Assembly (NCBI GenBank): GCA_023512345.1
Contig: JAILZT010000002.1
Span: 248,001-312,000, forward strand
Direction of reading: 5' to 3'
Source of the DNA: Paenibacillus sp.
GTDB taxonomy: Bacteria; Bacillota; Bacilli; Paenibacillales; Paenibacillaceae
Length of the DNA stretch: 64,000 nucleotides
The translations under genes were made by a program, and so were the position numbers. The notes under the pieces are model-generated. The model made no database searches. It saw only the letters and a list, made by a program, of their open reading frames with translations, and had not been told where the DNA came from. Positions 14,000 to 55,912 of the stretch are shown here, piece by piece; positions within the stretch are counted from its first letter, which is position 1; each line of letters opens with the position of its first letter.

Positions 14000-14069
14000 G
14001 CGAATAATATAAGGATAATATATGGCGTAAAACTGTATGAACTAGACTAATAACTGGACACGGTAAATG

Positions 14070-14273
14070 CTAAATTTGGTGTAAATGTGCAACTGAATTG
14101 TCCTCCAATGGCGAATTTAGCTAAATGTGATGTATAAGTGCAATTGAATCGTCCTCGGATGGAGGATTTGGCTAAATGTGATGTAAATGTGCAATTGAAT
14201 CGCACTTGGATGGTGAATTTGGCTAAATGTGATGTATAAGTGCAACTGAATCGCACTCGGATGGGGGATTTGG
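14070..14273. repeat. Four tandem 51-bp repeat units
   Basis: Four head-to-tail units of exactly 51 bp begin at 14070, 14121, 14172 and 14223; each starts CTAAAT and ends near GGATTTGG or GAATTTGG. Units 1 and 3 share TGTAAATGTG while 2 and 4 share TGTATAAGTG, so the array also has a 102-bp period. Because 51 is a multiple of three, a 69-codon minus-strand frame (14047-14256) stays open across it. Most differences between units would be nonsynonymous and it lacks a ribosome site, so I do not call it a gene. Confidence 0.85.
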
Positions 14274-41044: not shown

Positions 41045-41086
41045 TTTATATGAATTGTACAAATTATTACTTGTTGGGATTTGGTA

Positions 41087-41186
41087 GTAACTACGGTGAA
41101 TGTTGGACTTCCAGCCGCTGTTGTCTCCGGATTTTTACCGCTAAGGAAAATAAATAAAATCTGGAGAGCACAGCGATTGGAGCAAC
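41087..41186. repeat. Palindromic dispersed repeat, copy A (diverged)
   Basis: The copy begins GTAACTACGGTGAATGTTGG and shares the GCCGCTGTTGTCTCC block with copies at 49.2 and 55.7 kb. Left arm 41116-41135 (CGCTGT, CTCC, GATTTT) pairs with right arm 41156-41175 (AAAATC, GGAG, ACAGCG). Beyond 41186 the sequence differs from the other copies. It fills most of the 354-bp gap 40986-41339; I see no gene there. Confidence 0.72.
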
Positions 41187-41339
41187 GGTCCGTTCGCGGA
41201 GCGTCCGCTGACCACAACAACTTAAGTCTTACTCATTTGCACGGCTTTTGGGATAGCCCCTTGTTCTATCTTATCAGCCTGAATACTTTTACATCGCAGA
41301 CCCATACTAAGGGCATTCCAGATTTAACGGAGGCGACCG

Positions 41340-49136: not shown

Positions 49137-49206
49137 GATGGTTCCTCCCTTTGATTAATCGCCATTATATAAAACTGAACATGAAAAGCTACATTGAGAA
49201 TCTGCC

Positions 49207-49341
49207 GTAACTGCGGTGAATGTTGGACCTCCGGCCGCTGTTGTCTCCAGATTTCTTGGATTATACCGCTGTTCGCGGATGAAATCCGGAGACAAAGGCG
49301 ATCGCATTCGCTCCTACAGTTCCAAAATTCCCCTTCGTTAC
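49207..49341. repeat. Palindromic dispersed repeat, copy B
   Basis: The element has matching ends (GTAACTGCGG... and ...TTCGTTAC) and imperfect inverted termini of about 25 bp. The central stem pairs TTGTCTCC-n-GATTTC (49241-49255) with GAAATC-n-GGAGACAA (49281-49295), extended outward by CGCT/GGCG, with an inner CCGC-tgttc-GCGG hairpin. It lies between preT and preA. It fully accounts for the gap; a short open frame inside it is a by-product of the repeat. Confidence 0.82.
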
Positions 49342-49370
49342 TCTCACTCTAATGTTAATTACCAGTCCAC

Positions 49371-50762
49371 TTACACAGCCGAGCCAATCACGCTCGTCTG
49401 TTGGGGTAGGAACTGTTGGATGATGGCGTAGGCTGCATCCTTACCTTGTTGGGCGGCGGATACGACCATCGCTTCGCCTTTACCGGAACCGAAGACGATA
49501 TCTCCGGCTGCATAGACTTGCGGGTCGGAAGTGCGGTAGGTTGTCTCATCAATTTCGACAACCCCCCAATCATGGCGCAGGCCGAAGGCATCAATCAGGT
49601 CGGTTCGACGCTTTTGACCGATAGCGACTACCACTGCATCTACCGGCATGATGAATTCGGAGCCTTCGATAGGCATCGGGACAAGTCGTCCGTCCTTGCC
49701 TAATTCACCTGTCAGCTTCATCTGTACACATTCGAGGCCGGTGACATTCCCAAGCTCATCGCCAACGATTCGCTTGGGAAGGGTTAACCAGCTGAATTCT
49801 ACGCCTTCTTGCTTGGCGAATTCATATTCGAAATCATAGGCCGTCATTTCCTCGCGGGTCCGGCGGTAGACCATCTTTACATTTGATGCTCCCAGCCGTA
49901 CGGAACATGTTGCTCCATCAATGGCTGTATTGCCTGCGCCGATGACAGCCACACGTTGGCCCATCAGTTCCAGCGTTGGAATACCCGACTTGGTGCTCTC
50001 CACCAATTGGATAGCGTCATATACACCTGACAGTCGCTCACCTTCAATGCCGATAGGTGGCACGTAACCCATCCCTGCTGCCAGTACGATAGCATCGTAT
50101 CCGGATTTAAGCTCTTCTACCGAAACATCTACGCCAACCTTTACACCGGTGCGTATTTCCACGCCCAACTTCTCTACCTGCTCTACTTCCCAAAGGGATA
50201 CGGACTGGGGCAGCCTGAAGGATACGATTCCGTGTGTATCCAGACCTCCAGCTAACGGCTTTGCTTCATAGATCACAACGGAAAATCCCTTACGGGCTAG
50301 CTCTCGGGCTGCGGATAATCCGGCCGGTCCGCCGCCCACAACCGCGACTTTTTTACCAATGGATTTAGCGGCTGTAAATAATTGAACACCGCTTTGGATC
50401 GCCCAATCTGTTGCATAACGCTGGAGCAAGCCGATTTTGATCGGTTCGGAGGTATCGTTCAGCACACAAGCACCTTCACATAACTCCTCTGTTGGACACA
50501 CGCGGGCGCAGCTGGCCCCTACCGGATTGGAGTCCATAATGGTGTGAGCCGAGCCTTTTAGATTATCCGTAGCAATTCTTTTAATAAATGAAGGAATATT
50601 AATGCTGGTCGGACAGGCTTTAATGCAGGGAGCATCATAACAATAGAGACAACGATTAGATTCATCTATGGCACCTTTACGGGTCAGTCCCGACTGGGCC
50701 TCAGCAAAATTACGCATAAACATATCCGGTGTAAATGTAGTTAACGGACCCTCATGTCCCAT
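49371..50762 (-). CDS. preT: NAD-dependent dihydropyrimidine dehydrogenase subunit PreT
   Basis: The 463-residue flavoprotein takes electrons from NADH and passes them to PreA. N-terminal Fe-S Cys are CLYCYDAPCIKACP and CARVCPTEELCEGAC, followed by an FAD-binding GGGPAGLSAARELA, an NAD-binding GAGNTAIDGA, and the C-terminal AAGDIVFGSGKGEAMVVSAAQQG. GGAGGG lies before the ATG. It is first on the minus strand facing the PucR-family gene, so regulation through the shared palindromic region is likely. Confidence 0.94.
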   Translation of the reverse strand: MGHEGPLTTFTPDMFMRNFAEAQSGLTRKGAIDESNRCLYCYDAPCIKACPTSINIPSFIKRIATDNLKGSAHTIMDSNPVGASCARVCPTEELCEGACVLNDTSEPIKIGLLQRYATDWAIQSGVQLFTAAKSIGKKVAVVGGGPAGLSAARELARKGFSVVIYEAKPLAGGLDTHGIVSFRLPQSVSLWEVEQVEKLGVEIRTGVKVGVDVSVEELKSGYDAIVLAAGMGYVPPIGIEGERLSGVYDAIQLVESTKSGIPTLELMGQRVAVIGAGNTAIDGATCSVRLGASNVKMVYRRTREEMTAYDFEYEFAKQEGVEFSWLTLPKRIVGDELGNVTGLECVQMKLTGELGKDGRLVPMPIEGSEFIMPVDAVVVAIGQKRRTDLIDAFGLRHDWGVVEIDETTYRTSDPQVYAAGDIVFGSGKGEAMVVSAAQQGKDAAYAIIQQFLPQQTSVIGSAV

Positions 50763-50803
50763 CAGCTATCCCTCCATTTGGTTGTAGGTTATTTCTTTGC
50801 CGC

Positions 50804-50831
50804 AACATATATATGTTATATAATATAACAT
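50804..50831. promoter_or_regulatory. Operator-like palindromes near preT
   Basis: ATGTTATATAATATAACAT (50813-50831) is a perfect 19-bp palindrome, ATGTTA-N7-TAACAT. It overlaps a second one, AACATATATATGTT (50804-50817). It lies about 50 bases upstream of the preT start. Confidence 0.6.
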
Positions 50832-50869
50832 AATTACGATAGACGCCTTAATTTTGTGCATACAATTAG

Positions 50870-50890
50870 TCTATTTTATAATAAAATAGA
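50870..50890. promoter_or_regulatory. Perfect AT-rich palindrome in the preT-pucR gap
   Basis: The 10-bp arms TCTATTTTAT and ATAAAATAGA are separated by a single A. It may be a regulator site or a promoter-region DNA bend. Confidence 0.4.
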
Positions 50891-50938
50891 GAGGAATCCT
50901 CACTCATACCTTTAGACACTCCTATTGTATGTTATATA

Positions 50939-50957
50939 TAGTAACATTTTATATACA
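50939..50957. promoter_or_regulatory. Second operator-like palindrome, ATGTTA-N7-TAACAT
   Basis: ATGTTATATATAGTAACAT has the same half sites and spacing as the palindrome at 50813; the two centres are 126 bp apart, about twelve helical turns. Confidence 0.55.
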
Positions 50958-50985
50958 AACTATAGTCATTTCATATTTCCGTTAC

Positions 50986-51004
50986 ATTAGACACATTGTC
51001 TAAT
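50986..51004. promoter_or_regulatory. Palindrome just upstream of the pucR-family gene
   Basis: ATTAGAC-acatt-GTCTAAT is a perfect palindrome with 7-bp arms, 49 bases before the ATG. It could be an autoregulation site. Confidence 0.45.
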
Positions 51005-51053
51005 ATCAAAAGTGTATTTTTTACGATTTTCGATTAGGCGAGGGGGAACAACT

Positions 51054-52742
51054 ATGGATTGGGAGCTTGTATTTACAATTCGAGATGCATTGAAAAGACC
51101 ATTATTCGAAGAGGCCGAAGTCATCGGAGGAAAAAGCGGCCTCAATCGATCAATACGCTGGGTACATGTACTGGAAAGCGCCAGCTTCGAAAGTCTTATT
51201 CATGGCGAGGAGATGATCTTAAATACAGGTATCGGCATAGGTGTTGATGTGCCTTCATCTTTAGCTTTCATGGAGAATCTAATTCACAAAAATGCCGCTT
51301 GCCTATGCATAGAAATCGGCACCTATTTCAGCTCTGTCCCACGAGAGTTAGTTGAATTGGCTAATAAACATGACTTTCCATTGATTATCTTCAACCGCAC
51401 AGTCCGCTTTGTAGATATCACACTTGACCTGCATTCTCTTATCATTAACCGCCATCACCGCATGCTTCAGGAACTGGAGAGTATTTCACGCGAATTCCAT
51501 CGTTTAACCTTAACCTCACAAGGGGCCATCAAAGTGTTGCAACTCCTATCCAAAAGCACTCGCACACAAATCGTCTATATGCAGCTGCAAGGCAAACCAT
51601 TATTCTTCCCCGCACTCTCACCTGAGGATCAAGCGCCTTTGCTTCGTTTCTTCACAGATTTCAGCGAAGAGATGGAAGGAAGCCCGCCCGATGCATCTTC
51701 TTACACTCGTGAATACAGGAATAAAACTATGATGATTAAGCCAGTAGGAGCGCTAGATCAAACGTGGGCGTATATTATGATGATCTGTAACCACAAACCA
51801 CAGGAGTTTGATTGCCTGCTTTTGGATTCCGCTTCGCTGTCTATCGCCCAGGAACTGCTTCGCACACGTTACATGGAGGAACGGAAGCTTTTTTCTGAAA
51901 ATCTGTGGGTCGATGAACTTATTAATGGACGCATAGAAGATGATAATCGACTAAAAGGGCTGATCGGACCCGACTTCAATCTCGTGAATGAGCTCCCTTA
52001 CCGTGTATGCCTAATTGAGATTGAGAACCCGCGGGATGTGAAGTGGAATAGCTCTGAGAATGATTGGGAATCCATTACCTTTCACTTATCACTCATCCTG
52101 CGTTCTATCTTCGAGAAGTACTCCCTGCGACCACTTATCACCCTCAAAAACAACCGACTCACCGTCATCGCACTAGATATTCAGTCCAAAATGCCCGGCA
52201 AACCGAGACTCCAACAAGCTCTCGATTCCTTGCAGCACATCCGTTCCGACGAGAAGCTCAAGGACCTGCAGCTCATTATTGGTGTCAGCAAATCCCATAC
52301 AGGATTCAAGCATGCGTGCGCCGGCTATCAAGAAGCAGTTCAAGCATTGTCACTGTATCCTTGTTATCAAAAATCACTGCTGTTCTACGAAGAACTCGGG
52401 GTGTTCCAACTGCTGCTCAGCTTGAATGACGGCAAAACACTACAAGCTTTTATCCGCAGCTACCTCGGCCCCCTAATCGACCACGACCAAACCAAGGGAA
52501 GTGAGTTAATGCTGACACTGCGAGTCTTTCTGGATCATGATGGTTCCAAGCAAATCGCCGCCCGAAACTTATTCATCGTCAGACAATCACTCTACTATCG
52601 GCTAGATAAAATCACAGAGCTGCTGGGCGAGGACTTCATGTCCCCCGAGAACCGAATTTCGATTCAAGTAGCACTGCGGGCCTACCAATTTCTCTATCCG
52701 GAGAAGTTCGCTTTGCCTAGCTCTCGTTCATTACAGATTTGA
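51054..52742 (+). CDS. PucR-family transcriptional regulator
   Basis: The 562-residue regulator has the N-terminal PucR domain (FTIRDALKRPLFEEAEVIGGKSGLNR), a GGDEF-like central region and the C-terminal HTH (LTLRVFLDHDGSKQIAARNLF; VRQSLYYRLDKITELL). PucR proteins usually activate purine or related catabolic genes. The gene is divergent from preT, so it probably controls pyrimidine catabolism. ATG 51054 has GAGGGGG seven bases upstream; an in-frame start 42 bases earlier has none. Its end overlaps the class III aminotransferase gene by 26 bases, tail to tail. Confidence 0.88.
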   Translation: MDWELVFTIRDALKRPLFEEAEVIGGKSGLNRSIRWVHVLESASFESLIHGEEMILNTGIGIGVDVPSSLAFMENLIHKNAACLCIEIGTYFSSVPRELVELANKHDFPLIIFNRTVRFVDITLDLHSLIINRHHRMLQELESISREFHRLTLTSQGAIKVLQLLSKSTRTQIVYMQLQGKPLFFPALSPEDQAPLLRFFTDFSEEMEGSPPDASSYTREYRNKTMMIKPVGALDQTWAYIMMICNHKPQEFDCLLLDSASLSIAQELLRTRYMEERKLFSENLWVDELINGRIEDDNRLKGLIGPDFNLVNELPYRVCLIEIENPRDVKWNSSENDWESITFHLSLILRSIFEKYSLRPLITLKNNRLTVIALDIQSKMPGKPRLQQALDSLQHIRSDEKLKDLQLIIGVSKSHTGFKHACAGYQEAVQALSLYPCYQKSLLFYEELGVFQLLLSLNDGKTLQAFIRSYLGPLIDHDQTKGSELMLTLRVFLDHDGSKQIAARNLFIVRQSLYYRLDKITELLGEDFMSPENRISIQVALRAYQFLYPEKFALPSSRSLQI

Positions 52743-54075
52743 ATGTATCCACAATAAATTGCATATCTTCATCAGTGGAAGATAAGGGCGGTGCAAAAGT
52801 CAGCACATTATTGTAACCCGCTACGGTATCGCCGTTTTTGCCAATGATAAGTCCCTTGGCTTTACACTTTGCAATAATTCCTTTTACCGTGTCCAGATCA
52901 ATAGGCTTTTTACTAACCTTGTCTTCAACAAGTTCAATCCCTGTAACTAATCCAAAGCTGCGGATGTCTCCTACTAGTTTATGATCCAGCAGTTCCGAGA
53001 GCTCTCGATTCAATCTAGCACCCAAAACATCAGCACGTTCGATAAGCTTCTCCTGTTCAAGGATCTCAAGATTGCGAAGCGCTAACGCACAAGCCGCAGG
53101 ATTGCCTCCAAAGGTATTAACGTGGCGGAAATATCCGTAATCATCACTATTATCCTTGAATACTTCATAGATATCTTTGCGAACGGCTGTAGCTGATAGC
53201 GGGAGGTAGGCACTCGTCAACCCTTTTGCCATCGTCACGATATCCGGTTTAATATTGAAGTTGTGGTGGCCAAATTTGCGCCCAGAGCGCCCAAACCCAC
53301 AGATTACCTCATCAATAATGAGCAGCACACCATGCTTACGGCAAATCTCCTGCACGCGGTCCATGTACACTTGATGCGGCACAATGACTCCGCCTCCTGT
53401 AATCACCGGTTCCATGATCACGGCAGCTACAGTCTCCGCACCTTCCCATACAATCGTGTCCTCAATGGACTGTGCACACTGGAGATTGAATTCCTCTACC
53501 GTTTGTCCGGCAGGACGACGGTAGCTATCCGGTGGAGCGACATGGAGAAATCCCCCGCCGAGCGGCTCGTATTTGTATTTCCGTTGCGCCTGACCCGTTG
53601 CAGCCAAGGCCCCCATTGAATTTCCGTGATAACCACGGTAGCGGGCAATAAATTTATGGCGATAATGCTGGCCTATCTGCTGCTGGTATTGACGGGCCAT
53701 TTTGAAAGCAGCCTCATTCGCTTCCGATCCACTGTTCGAGAAGAAGATTACATAATCATCTCCCAACCATTCATTCAGCTTCTCCGCTAGGGTAATAGCA
53801 GGCAAATGGCTTTGTGTCAGCGGGAAATACGGAAGGCTCAGCAGTTGATTATAGGCAGCCTCCGCCAGTTCCTTACGGCCATAACCCACATTCACGCACC
53901 ATAAACCAGACATCCCATCCAAGTATTTATTCCCATGAATATCGGTAACCCATGAACCACTGGCTGATGTGGCAATCATCGGTGGATTCGTCTCACTGTA
54001 AGGGGTAATGTTATGCCATAAATACTTCTGGTCCTTCTTAATTGCTAGTTCACTTTCCGTCCCCAAGCTTCGCAT
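52717..54075 (-). CDS. Class III aminotransferase, beta-alanine/omega-amino acid type
   Basis: The 452-residue PLP enzyme has the class III pattern: FSNSGSEANEAAFKMARQYQ, the PLP-stacking YRGYHGNSMGALA, LLIIDEVICGFGRSG and the PLP Lys in VTMAKGLTSAYLPLSA. In this locus it most likely passes the amino group of beta-alanine or beta-aminoisobutyrate to pyruvate or 2-oxoglutarate, making malonate or methylmalonate semialdehyde. I start at 54075 because GAGAGGAG lies just upstream. The 30-bp gap to the upstream mmsA-like gene suggests an operon. Confidence 0.9.
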   Translation of the reverse strand: MRSLGTESELAIKKDQKYLWHNITPYSETNPPMIATSASGSWVTDIHGNKYLDGMSGLWCVNVGYGRKELAEAAYNQLLSLPYFPLTQSHLPAITLAEKLNEWLGDDYVIFFSNSGSEANEAAFKMARQYQQQIGQHYRHKFIARYRGYHGNSMGALAATGQAQRKYKYEPLGGGFLHVAPPDSYRRPAGQTVEEFNLQCAQSIEDTIVWEGAETVAAVIMEPVITGGGVIVPHQVYMDRVQEICRKHGVLLIIDEVICGFGRSGRKFGHHNFNIKPDIVTMAKGLTSAYLPLSATAVRKDIYEVFKDNSDDYGYFRHVNTFGGNPAACALALRNLEILEQEKLIERADVLGARLNRELSELLDHKLVGDIRSFGLVTGIELVEDKVSKKPIDLDTVKGIIAKCKAKGLIIGKNGDTVAGYNNVLTFAPPLSSTDEDMQFIVDTFKSVMNES

Positions 54076-54105
54076 AACACGTTCTCCTCTCAAACTCCGC
54101 ATTGG

Positions 54106-55569
54106 TTAATAACGTGCAGTAATCATTTTTTTACGAGTATAAAATTCAACACCGTCCCGGCCATTCGCATGCAAATCCCCATAAAATGATTTCTTGTAGC
54201 CTGAGAACGGGAAAAATGCCATTGGCGCTGGAACACCCAGATTTACACCGAGCATACCTGCATCAATCTCTTCACGGAACTCACGAATGGCTTTGGCACT
54301 GTCCGTATAAATGCAAGCCCCATTGGCAAAAGGCGATTGATTCGTCACCGCGATGGCCTCACTCAGATCTTTGACACGAATTACAGCCAGTACCGGCGCA
54401 AAAATCTCTTCCTTCCAAATCACCATGCCTGGCTTCACATGATCAAAGATCGTCGGCCCGATAAAATACCCGGCACCGCTTACAGCAGCATCCGTCCTGC
54501 CGTCCCGCACCAATGTGGCGTTCTCACGTTCGCCCGCTTCAATATACGATACCGCCCTATCCTTATTGGATTGCCGGATTACCGGACCAAGGAACACACC
54601 CTCCTCCACGCCGTTTCCAATTTTGAGCGCATCAGCAGCTGAGATTAGGCGGTTCACCAATTCATCAGCAATGGCCTCATGGACCACTACCACCGAGCAA
54701 GCCATACAACGTTCACCCGCTGAACCGAAGGCCGCCGAAATAATATTTTTCACAGCATTATCAAGATCCGCATCCGGTAGAACGATGGAATGATTCTTCG
54801 CTCCAGCCAACGCTTGAACCCGTTTGCCATAGGAGGTTCCCGTCTTGTACACATATTCCGCTACAGGCTGAGAGCCCACAAAGGAGATCGCCTTAACCCC
54901 CTCATGCTCCAACAAACCATTCACAACCTCATGCGCCCCATGCACAATATTGAGCACACCCGGTGGGAACCCCGCTTGGGAGAACAATTCTCCTAAGCGA
55001 TTCACTAGCAGCGGAGTACGCTCAGAAGGCTTCAACACAAAGGTGTTGCCACAGGCAATCGCCAACGGAAACATCCAACAAGGCACCATCATCGGGAAGT
55101 TGAACGGAGCAATGCCCCCAACAACACCCAAAGGATAGCGGTACATACCCGACTCTACACCGGTAGCGATATCCGGCAGCTGACTCCCCATCATAAGACT
55201 CGGAATCCCTGCCGCGAATTCCACACACTCGATTCCGCGCTGCACCTCACCGTAGGCTTCCTCAAGGCTTTTACCATTCTCCAGTGTGATCAACTCCGCC
55301 AGCTCATTCCAATATTGAACCAACAGTTGCTGGTATTGAAAGAAATAACGAGCTCTCCGGGGCACGGCAACCTTTTTCCAGGATTTAAAAGCTTCTGCAG
55401 CCGCCTCAACAGCCGCATCCAGCTCATCCCGCCCAGAGATTGGTACATACGCTATGACTTCTCCCGTTGCCGGATTGACCACCTCTTCATCCCGTCCGGA
55501 GGACGAGTCAACCCAAGCACCGTTCACATAATTCTTGACCCTTATCGCATTTGTAATCAGTAGAGACAT
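54106..55569 (-). CDS. mmsA: CoA-acylating (methyl)malonate-semialdehyde dehydrogenase
   Basis: The 487-residue aldehyde dehydrogenase carries the MmsA/IolA signature: [40 protein letters not shown] and the catalytic Cys in [16 protein letters not shown]. It would convert methylmalonate or malonate semialdehyde to propionyl- or acetyl-CoA with NAD. That is the last step after the aminotransferase encoded 30 bp downstream. ATG 55569 has AGAGGTG upstream; an ATG three codons earlier is less well placed. An inositol-pathway role (IolA) is possible but no iol gene is nearby. Confidence 0.92.
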
Positions 55570-55721
55570 TCCTGGCACCTCTTTTCTCTATCTGTTGTTT
55601 ACCAATCACCGATTATAAGGAGATGACCGCCAAAATGACGGCCATCCATTGATAAATATGCTGGGGTTACATAAATTGAACTTGAACTAAAGTTTCTACA
55701 AAAGAGATTTGGTGTTTGGTC

Positions 55722-55858
55722 GTAACTGCGGAGAATGTTTGGACTTCCGGCCGCTGTTGTCCCCAGATTTCTTGGATTATATCGCTTATTCGCGGTTGAA
55801 ATCCGGGGACAAAGGCGGTCGCTATCGCTCCTACAGTTCCAAACTTCCCCTACGTCAC
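55722..55858. repeat. Palindromic dispersed repeat, copy C
   Basis: Ends GTAACTGCGG... and ...TACGTCAC and most of the interior match copy B. The stem pairs TTGTCCCC-n-GATTTC (55757-55771) with GAAATC-n-GGGGACAA (55798-55812). Relative to copy B both sides changed together (T-A to C-G), so the stem is conserved. It fills much of the 343-bp gap between the binding-protein gene and mmsA; no gene is seen there. Confidence 0.82.
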
Positions 55859-55912
55859 TTTTCCACCCTTACCTTCTATGTTTAATACTTCAGTTCATCA
55901 CATATAACCTAC

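Follow-up and report, generated by a model that had tools for sequence, protein, structure and literature searches.

What does selection maintain in a short intergenic repeat, its ability to move or the shape that it takes when single-stranded? Two copies of a palindromic element raise this question in a 64,000-nucleotide stretch of Paenibacillus sp. DNA (assembly GCA_023512345.1, contig JAILZT010000002.1, positions 248,001 to 312,000 of the forward strand), which is called the window throughout. Both copies lie where a first-pass annotation of the sequence had placed them, with GTAACTGCGG at 49207 and 55722 and the right-hand GTTAC and GTCAC blocks ending at 49341 and 55858. Conserved copies do exist at these places; however, the ~135 bp given there as the size of the element covers the core only, and the full unit, a miniature inverted-repeat transposable element (MITE), is longer. 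The strand that folds, hereafter the R strand, is the minus strand of the window for both copies. At a probability of roughly 55%, our preferred explanation is that the core is a strand-specific folded module that would act in the transcript and is carried by several types of MITE; the action of the folded form in the transcript is the part that we infer.

The folded module comprises an outer stem (P1), a mini-hairpin of two base pairs whose loop is GNNA or GNA, a 15-bp stem (P2), and a three-way junction whose well-conserved consensus on the R strand reads approximately CTGGAG-AGCG-NN-AGCG-TTCGCCTTTG ... CAACAGCG-TCGGAAG. For the two window copies, the fold z-scores are -3.84 and -6.62 on the minus strand and -2.63 and -3.85 on the plus strand. 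RNAalifold assigned 41 pairs to 32 copies from the same genome, 13 of them changed on both sides. The paired change from TTGTCTCC/GGAGACAA to TTGTCCCC/GGGGACAA that first drew attention to the locus is real, as columns 54 and 100 of this alignment (A1) read U-A in 25 of the 32 copies and C-G in 4; columns 55 and 99 provide a further example (CG in 17, AU in 9, UA in 3, and GC in 1). The joint variation claimed for the terminal GTTGGA/GTTTGGA blocks, as aligned, consists of an indel in a bulged column and a change on one side only, facing a constant C, with no paired change. Across these 32 copies 98.7% of the cells are paired, and the covariation of 0.171 compares with 0.091 in shuffled and at most 0.053 in slid alignments. 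Among 43 copies from 27 genera, 95.7% of the cells are paired against 75.3% after shuffling, 37 of the 41 pairs have changed on both sides, and the covariation reaches 0.577, compared with 0.191 shuffled and at most 0.157 slid. Column shuffles and slid alignments, which served as the controls, model phylogeny only in part. In distant copies the sequences of P1 and P2 vary freely between genera with pairing kept, and the junction is well conserved. Covariation above both controls, in own and diverse copies alike, together with an excess of G.U over A.C on one strand, supports the proposal that selection acts on a folded form.

The R strand folds to a lower energy than the opposite strand in all 32 own-genome copies. 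Over all pairs of these copies we counted 53 G.U against 7 A.C. Since the diverse alignment had been fitted to the model, P2 was also counted without any alignment in 180 copies (34 of 214 distinct copies were skipped), giving 130 G.U against 12 A.C on the R strand, or 40 against 12 without the commonest G.U position; filtering on Watson–Crick pairs only left the figures unchanged. A strand-symmetric cause would give equal numbers of G.U and A.C. This bears on an explanation without selection on the fold, in which hairpin (quasipalindrome) template switching keeps the arms paired and recent amplification accounts for the likeness of the copies. The whole unit is near-palindromic, near-identical copies and tandem arrays occur, and at 2 of 10 ortholog pairs the core is reversed relative to its flanks, all as this explanation would have it. 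Copying of one arm onto the other would not distinguish between the strands, but G.U outnumbers A.C both in P2 and over all pairs of the 43 diverse copies (70:25). It would also wipe out the asymmetric junction and the internal loops, both of which are retained throughout the order. At orthologous sites (10 pairs at 9 own sites) the core is 88.5% identical (1226/1385) against 71.0% (590/831) for the 45-nt arms; the pairs were drawn from copies found by similarity, which favours the core figure, and the arms of old copies have already decayed. Differences fall on 51 of 802 paired and 127 of 562 unpaired positions at these sites. On balance, we regard purely neutral maintenance as quite improbable. 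The two reversed cores (L002/L175 and L028/L150) suggest inversion or independent insertion.

The core is found throughout the order. Covariance model R1 detected it in 312 of 392 genomes of the order, covering 34 of 49 genera, and in 38 of 38 distant genomes that had been selected as already matched, with 1 to 84 copies each. In a class-wide draw with model R2, 39 of 398 genomes matched, 38 of the same order and one outside it with a single match; the large genome draws were run with stricter filters, by which weak matches were lost. Most matches on the opposite strand are echoes of the palindrome; alignment A4 was made with a stricter cut that excludes them, and A2 and A3 retain them. A pattern scan of named genomes returned at least 119 stretches, and among the 80 listed, 73 were from Paenibacillus, 5 from Saccharibacillus, and 1 each from Gorillibacterium and Fontibacillus. 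An element restricted to the genus, as BLAST had indicated (37 of 37 own-genus genomes, the own genome included, and one marginal match among 23 others), was overturned by the covariance model, which showed that the apparent restriction was a limit of BLAST sensitivity. Phage records gave no match, plasmids gave one weak Paenibacillus match, and in IMG/VR the motif occurs in five stretches, two of them with a good model match. These two viral contigs (L553 and L555), possibly prophages, each bear a good copy of the core at ~100 bits. Rfam gave no match in the window at gathering scores, nor up to E 5 in the 7.2 kb around both copies; at 20 distant loci searched up to E 1 there were two matches, neither on the element. 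A weak BsrG-like match (L273 1872–1998, 34.6 bits against a gathering score of 55) lies near a core in a distant genome.

In its own genome the core occurs in at least 40 places (40 of 74 first-look candidates were scored), so that further copies are far from scarce. The conserved region extends past the GTAAC/GTTAC block: in the alignment of 41 copies many carry an outer inverted repeat, CTATATAGATTGAACTTAA, a scan for which gave 49 places against 1 control match, and the terminal inverted repeats of the unit read (TA)TATAGATTGAAC. Units with well-kept ends mostly measure 212–220 bp, or 254–259 bp when they contain an extra hairpin, a hairpin-like insert of ~40 nt; 21 of the 23 fall within 204–259 bp and contain no transposase gene, the exceptions being L052 (45 bp) and L044 (568 bp). 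The former is a 45-bp pair of ends with no core. Within or next to these IS630-type ends, L044 (1001–1566), L045, L050, L052, and L054 of the own genome have a second, unrelated-looking repeat module, ATACGGAC ... GTCCGCATA.

The MITE-like character suspected at first sight is upheld by these terminal repeats, by a TA duplicated inside CTAG at empty sites, and by presence or absence of copies between sister species. For the empty sites, the sequences on either side of 11 young copies were fused and compared with G121 and G122, the two closest relatives. Six of the 11 were readable; the other five (L009, L036, L014, L049, and L005) gave broken or no matches. At L010 the empty site TTTTTG-CTAG-ATTAGC, with a clear CTAG in both sister genomes, corresponds to TTTTTG-CTA[element]TAG-ATTAGC when filled; the empty site of L035 is a clear CTAG in one sister genome, and in G121 its flanks sit on both sides of the copy L155. 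At L021 the empty site reads TCAG, and at L038, L017, and L032 the site is empty with a diverged junction, the last being empty in G121 and filled in G122 (L135). The simplest reading of these junctions is that TA would be duplicated within CTAG on insertion, the IS630 pattern; a title in the reference list of PMC2170065 likewise refers to IS630-linked transposition into the TA of 5'-CTAG-3'.

IS630-type transposase genes (PF13358) were found in 49 of 100 genomes of the genus, and the own genome gave 0 matches at E 0.001. At 16 of 30 transposase loci TATATA-type inverted ends lie 1.13–1.18 kb apart, 10 of these with C and G outside, as in CTAG. The nearest ends, those of L218, read TATATAGATTGAACTAAAGA against TATATAGATTGAACTTAAGA in the MITE and share 19 of 20 end bases, the left neighbour in L218 being T, not C. 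With IS630-type elements of near-identical ends in relatives and none found in the own genome, the element here is best classed, from its sequence features, as a MITE: within the genus it is apparently a non-autonomous unit with IS630-type ends. The idea that autonomous IS630 elements themselves carry the core found no support, the core being present at 0 of the 30 transposase loci.

The same IS630-type ends do not accompany the core in every lineage. In G123 the ends are IS630-like. In G164, a member of a different family, GAGGCCACTGAAAAA and its complement bracket the core, in units with GAGGCCACTG ends and 8-bp duplications: when the 8-mers lying one base beyond the searched repeat are compared in 22 units, 62% of their bases match, against 26% between mismatched copies, and the duplication is exact at L314, L323, L386, L402, L412, and L414. 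No insertion-sequence-sized unit with both of these ends recognised was found among the 30 of 73 pattern places looked at, where open reading frames were not compared with Pfam. The units of G179 have TTGAGAAAGTGG ends, and 3 of 7 (L338, L342, and L343) are flanked by exact 17-bp direct repeats of a terminator-like hairpin; short duplications there show no clear excess over the control. G385 has yet another outer repeat, GGTGAAAAA, together with tandem arrays. The different ends in G164, G179, and G385 imply that one folded core has been joined to several transposon-like end types. A broader account, which we hold only tentatively, is that a folded module with a conserved junction has been passed between unrelated transposon types across the order and that a host or mobility factor recognises it in a folded single-stranded form, either RNA or single-stranded DNA (ssDNA); MITEs of different origin would thus converge on carrying the module, and the module rather than the ends would persist. 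In G385 and G393 the arrays consist of three or four cores with start-to-start distances of ~170–490 nt (L286 1192–1698, L287 1277–1935, L374, and L375).

We also counted the orientation of the R strand relative to the neighbouring genes. Of 218 copies in 33 genomes, 92 lie with both neighbours and 38 against both, 27 between divergent and 45 between convergent genes; 16 were set aside, 8 at contig edges and 8 far from genes. The count left out 8 second copies of one locus set, several further second copies, L131, own copies in L032–L055, L266, and L270. The ratio of copies with both neighbours to copies against both is 18:2 in the own genome, 13:3 and 16:5 in its sisters, 6:0 in G123, and 6:1 in G164. 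As CTAG is palindromic, insertion itself should favour no orientation, and the bias would then reflect later selection. In G164, moreover, many units sit by eye inside intrinsic-terminator hairpins, with the T-run mostly 3' on the R strand. The transcript is put first, with modest confidence, because of how the units are oriented to genes and where they sit in terminators. In the proposed sequence of events, the R strand of an inserted unit would, in the own genus, usually lie in the direction of the neighbouring genes; the R-strand RNA would form a compact, self-contained hairpin, so that the surrounding RNA or a terminator keeps working; and the module may bind a putative conserved host factor or nuclease. 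Insertions would thereby become tolerable, and we propose that this lets core-bearing MITEs persist and spread. A role in trans, with copies producing small RNAs or decoys that sequester a conserved RNA-binding protein wherever they lie, would suit the junction conserved in 43 diverse copies, the range of 1 to 84 copies per genome, and the lack of an orientation bias in some genomes; position would then be irrelevant, and the strong bias in the own genome and its sisters makes such a role seem a long shot.

A number of observations weigh against action in the transcript. There is no orientation bias in G385 (9:13), G179 (2:4), G393 (4:3), or G145 (3:2); when the own genome and both sisters are left out the sum is 45:28, the ratio at 23 loci of other own-genus genomes is 13:5, and L396 of G164 sits in a terminator in the opposite direction. 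Taken over every pair of the diverse copies, the asymmetry between the strands is less marked than in P2: it drops to 48:25 once the commonest G.U pair is removed, and 22 pairs lean towards G.U, 7 towards A.C. Of 27 one-sided changes at orthologous sites, 15 involve a non-standard pair. Alignments A2 and A4 were fitted to the structure, the similarity search that recovered the copies is biased towards conserved cores, and many copies share ancestry. The R strand runs along replication in 68 of 100 copies among the matches listed for 18 genomes, with coordinate 1 assumed to be the origin (lengths were rounded for G103 and G110, and five own-genus one-row genomes, 3 of 5 in agreement, were left out); in G108 the agreement is reversed, at 1 of 8 among the matches listed. 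Cases able to separate transcription from replication split 2:2.

The loop of the mini-hairpin is a further point on that side. It reads GNNA in 150 of 164 tetraloops and GNA in all 20 triloops, 30 copies being unreadable. RNA loops of the GNRA type would favour a purine at the third place, and G.T is also a better tolerated mismatch in DNA. In the 150 GNNA loops the third base is a pyrimidine in 102 and a purine in 48, which fits the rule for stable DNA hairpins and not the RNA GNRA rule, and leaves room for a form in ssDNA. As described in excerpts of PMC4686876, a GNA or GNNA loop closed by at least two G-C pairs makes an unusually stable DNA mini-hairpin. The active form might thus be the folded R strand as ssDNA, arising in replication or transposition and read by a DNA-binding or mobility protein, with differing ends reflecting differing partners. 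The two G-C pairs of the mini-hairpin, which place it in that stable class, the agreement with replication, the tolerance of DNA for G.T, and the recurrence of the core on unrelated ends all accord with such a form. Against it, own-genus units enter CTAG with a TA duplication, the IS630-type double-strand route that needs no ssDNA hairpin, and the gene orientation in the own genome (18:2) is stronger than the agreement with replication in related genomes. Freedom in the loop is by itself no proof of DNA, and no protein partner turned up, although none was sought. We therefore consider an ssDNA form unlikely, and retain the folded module in the transcript as the explanation to be preferred.

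The features of the window are collected in Table 1. The ends of copy 1 differ from the intact end at 9 and 10 of 19 positions, and random 70-nt stretches mostly give 8–10 mismatches, so its outer limits, 49166 and 49377, are a guess. Both sister genomes share this copy at the same intergenic position; in the 27 other genomes examined (L089–L115) the site gave no model match. The G121 copy contains an extra hairpin; the own and G122 copies are without it. Window copy 1 is old. A third, rearranged relative gave a weak model match (41116–41175, 21.4 bits, E 0.003). It looks chimeric by eye, as the arm facing its intact half resembles a duplicate of that half and not the usual 5' half. Elsewhere in the window, 14069–14272 is a tandem repeat with a period of 51 nt; its overlapping copies of 102 nt are 82–85% alike.

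Table 1. Positions of the element and its parts in the window
Feature	Position	Strand	Basis
Core copy 1 (folded module)	49205-49343	minus	R2 covariance model match, 137.9 bits
Core copy 2	55720-55860	minus	R2 covariance model match, 141.4 bits
MITE unit of copy 1, guessed outer limits, ends TATATAAAACTGAAC ... AGTCCACTTACACA	49166-49377		String positions; decayed ends match no better than chance
Probable full MITE unit of copy 2, partly decayed ends TTACATAAATTGAAC ... CATCACATATAA	55667-55907		4 and 6 mismatches of 19
P2 stem arm, copy 1 (partner 49281-49295)	49241-49255	minus	Sequence, fold, alignment
P2 stem arm, copy 1 (partner 49241-49255)	49281-49295	minus	Sequence, fold, alignment
P2 stem arm, copy 2 (partner 55798-55812)	55757-55771	minus	Sequence, fold, alignment
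P2 stem arm, copy 2 (partner 55757-55771)	55798-55812	minus	Sequence, fold, alignment
Mini-hairpin, copy 1, R strand GC-GAAT-GC, among the few non-GNNA loops	49304-49311	minus	Sequence, loop survey
Mini-hairpin, copy 2, R strand GC-GATA-GC, GNNA loop	55821-55828	minus	Sequence, loop survey
Rearranged third relative: remnant of the left terminus and left portion of the core, followed by an arm resembling the core's other half; right boundary uncertain	41046-41240		Sequence comparison

REP/BIME elements, with their RAYT transposases, and integron attC sites are folded intergenic repeats, attC acting as folded ssDNA; in contrast, the ends here are transposon-like with target duplications. A REP-like nature, which the first-pass annotation had offered beside the MITE-like one, gained no support from anything found, though no search for RAYT genes was made. 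The open-licence literature on Paenibacillus repeats and structured RNAs, at the level of titles and abstract openings, yielded no description of this repeat, and a review of prokaryotic MITEs (PMC10969869) mentions neither Paenibacillus nor IS630. A close likeness is RUP, linked to IS630-Spn1. According to passages of PMC2229807 and PMC3049150, it too is a small structured repeat between genes, its ends resemble those of IS630, its targets are TA, and it is present in ~110 copies. As described there, RUP is known chiefly from pneumococcus and species close to it, whereas here the core is order-wide, sits on unrelated ends, and has a conserved three-way junction. Correia/NEMIS of Neisseria is also a MITE with TA ends and short and long forms, and the excerpts consulted propose its RNA stem-loop as an RNase III substrate; by description its insert is ~50 bp, whereas the insert here is a hairpin-like stretch of ~40 nt. 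BOX and SPRITE of pneumococcus are small repeats with predicted folds, BOX being modular and partly co-transcribed and SPRITE terminator-like; they are different repeats by their descriptions, in the consulted parts of which no order-wide core appears for either. Small structured mobile repeats with IS630 partners are thus already known, as the accounts of RUP indicate; what differs here is a fold that runs through a whole order on ends that vary. A new RNA-family entry could be built from the two covariance models, and the question of whether small repeats keep their structure for their own spread or because hosts use the fold becomes testable. In the literature compared, structured MITEs have been treated one species or group at a time and with at most one transposase, whereas here one fold extends across an order and the ends change.

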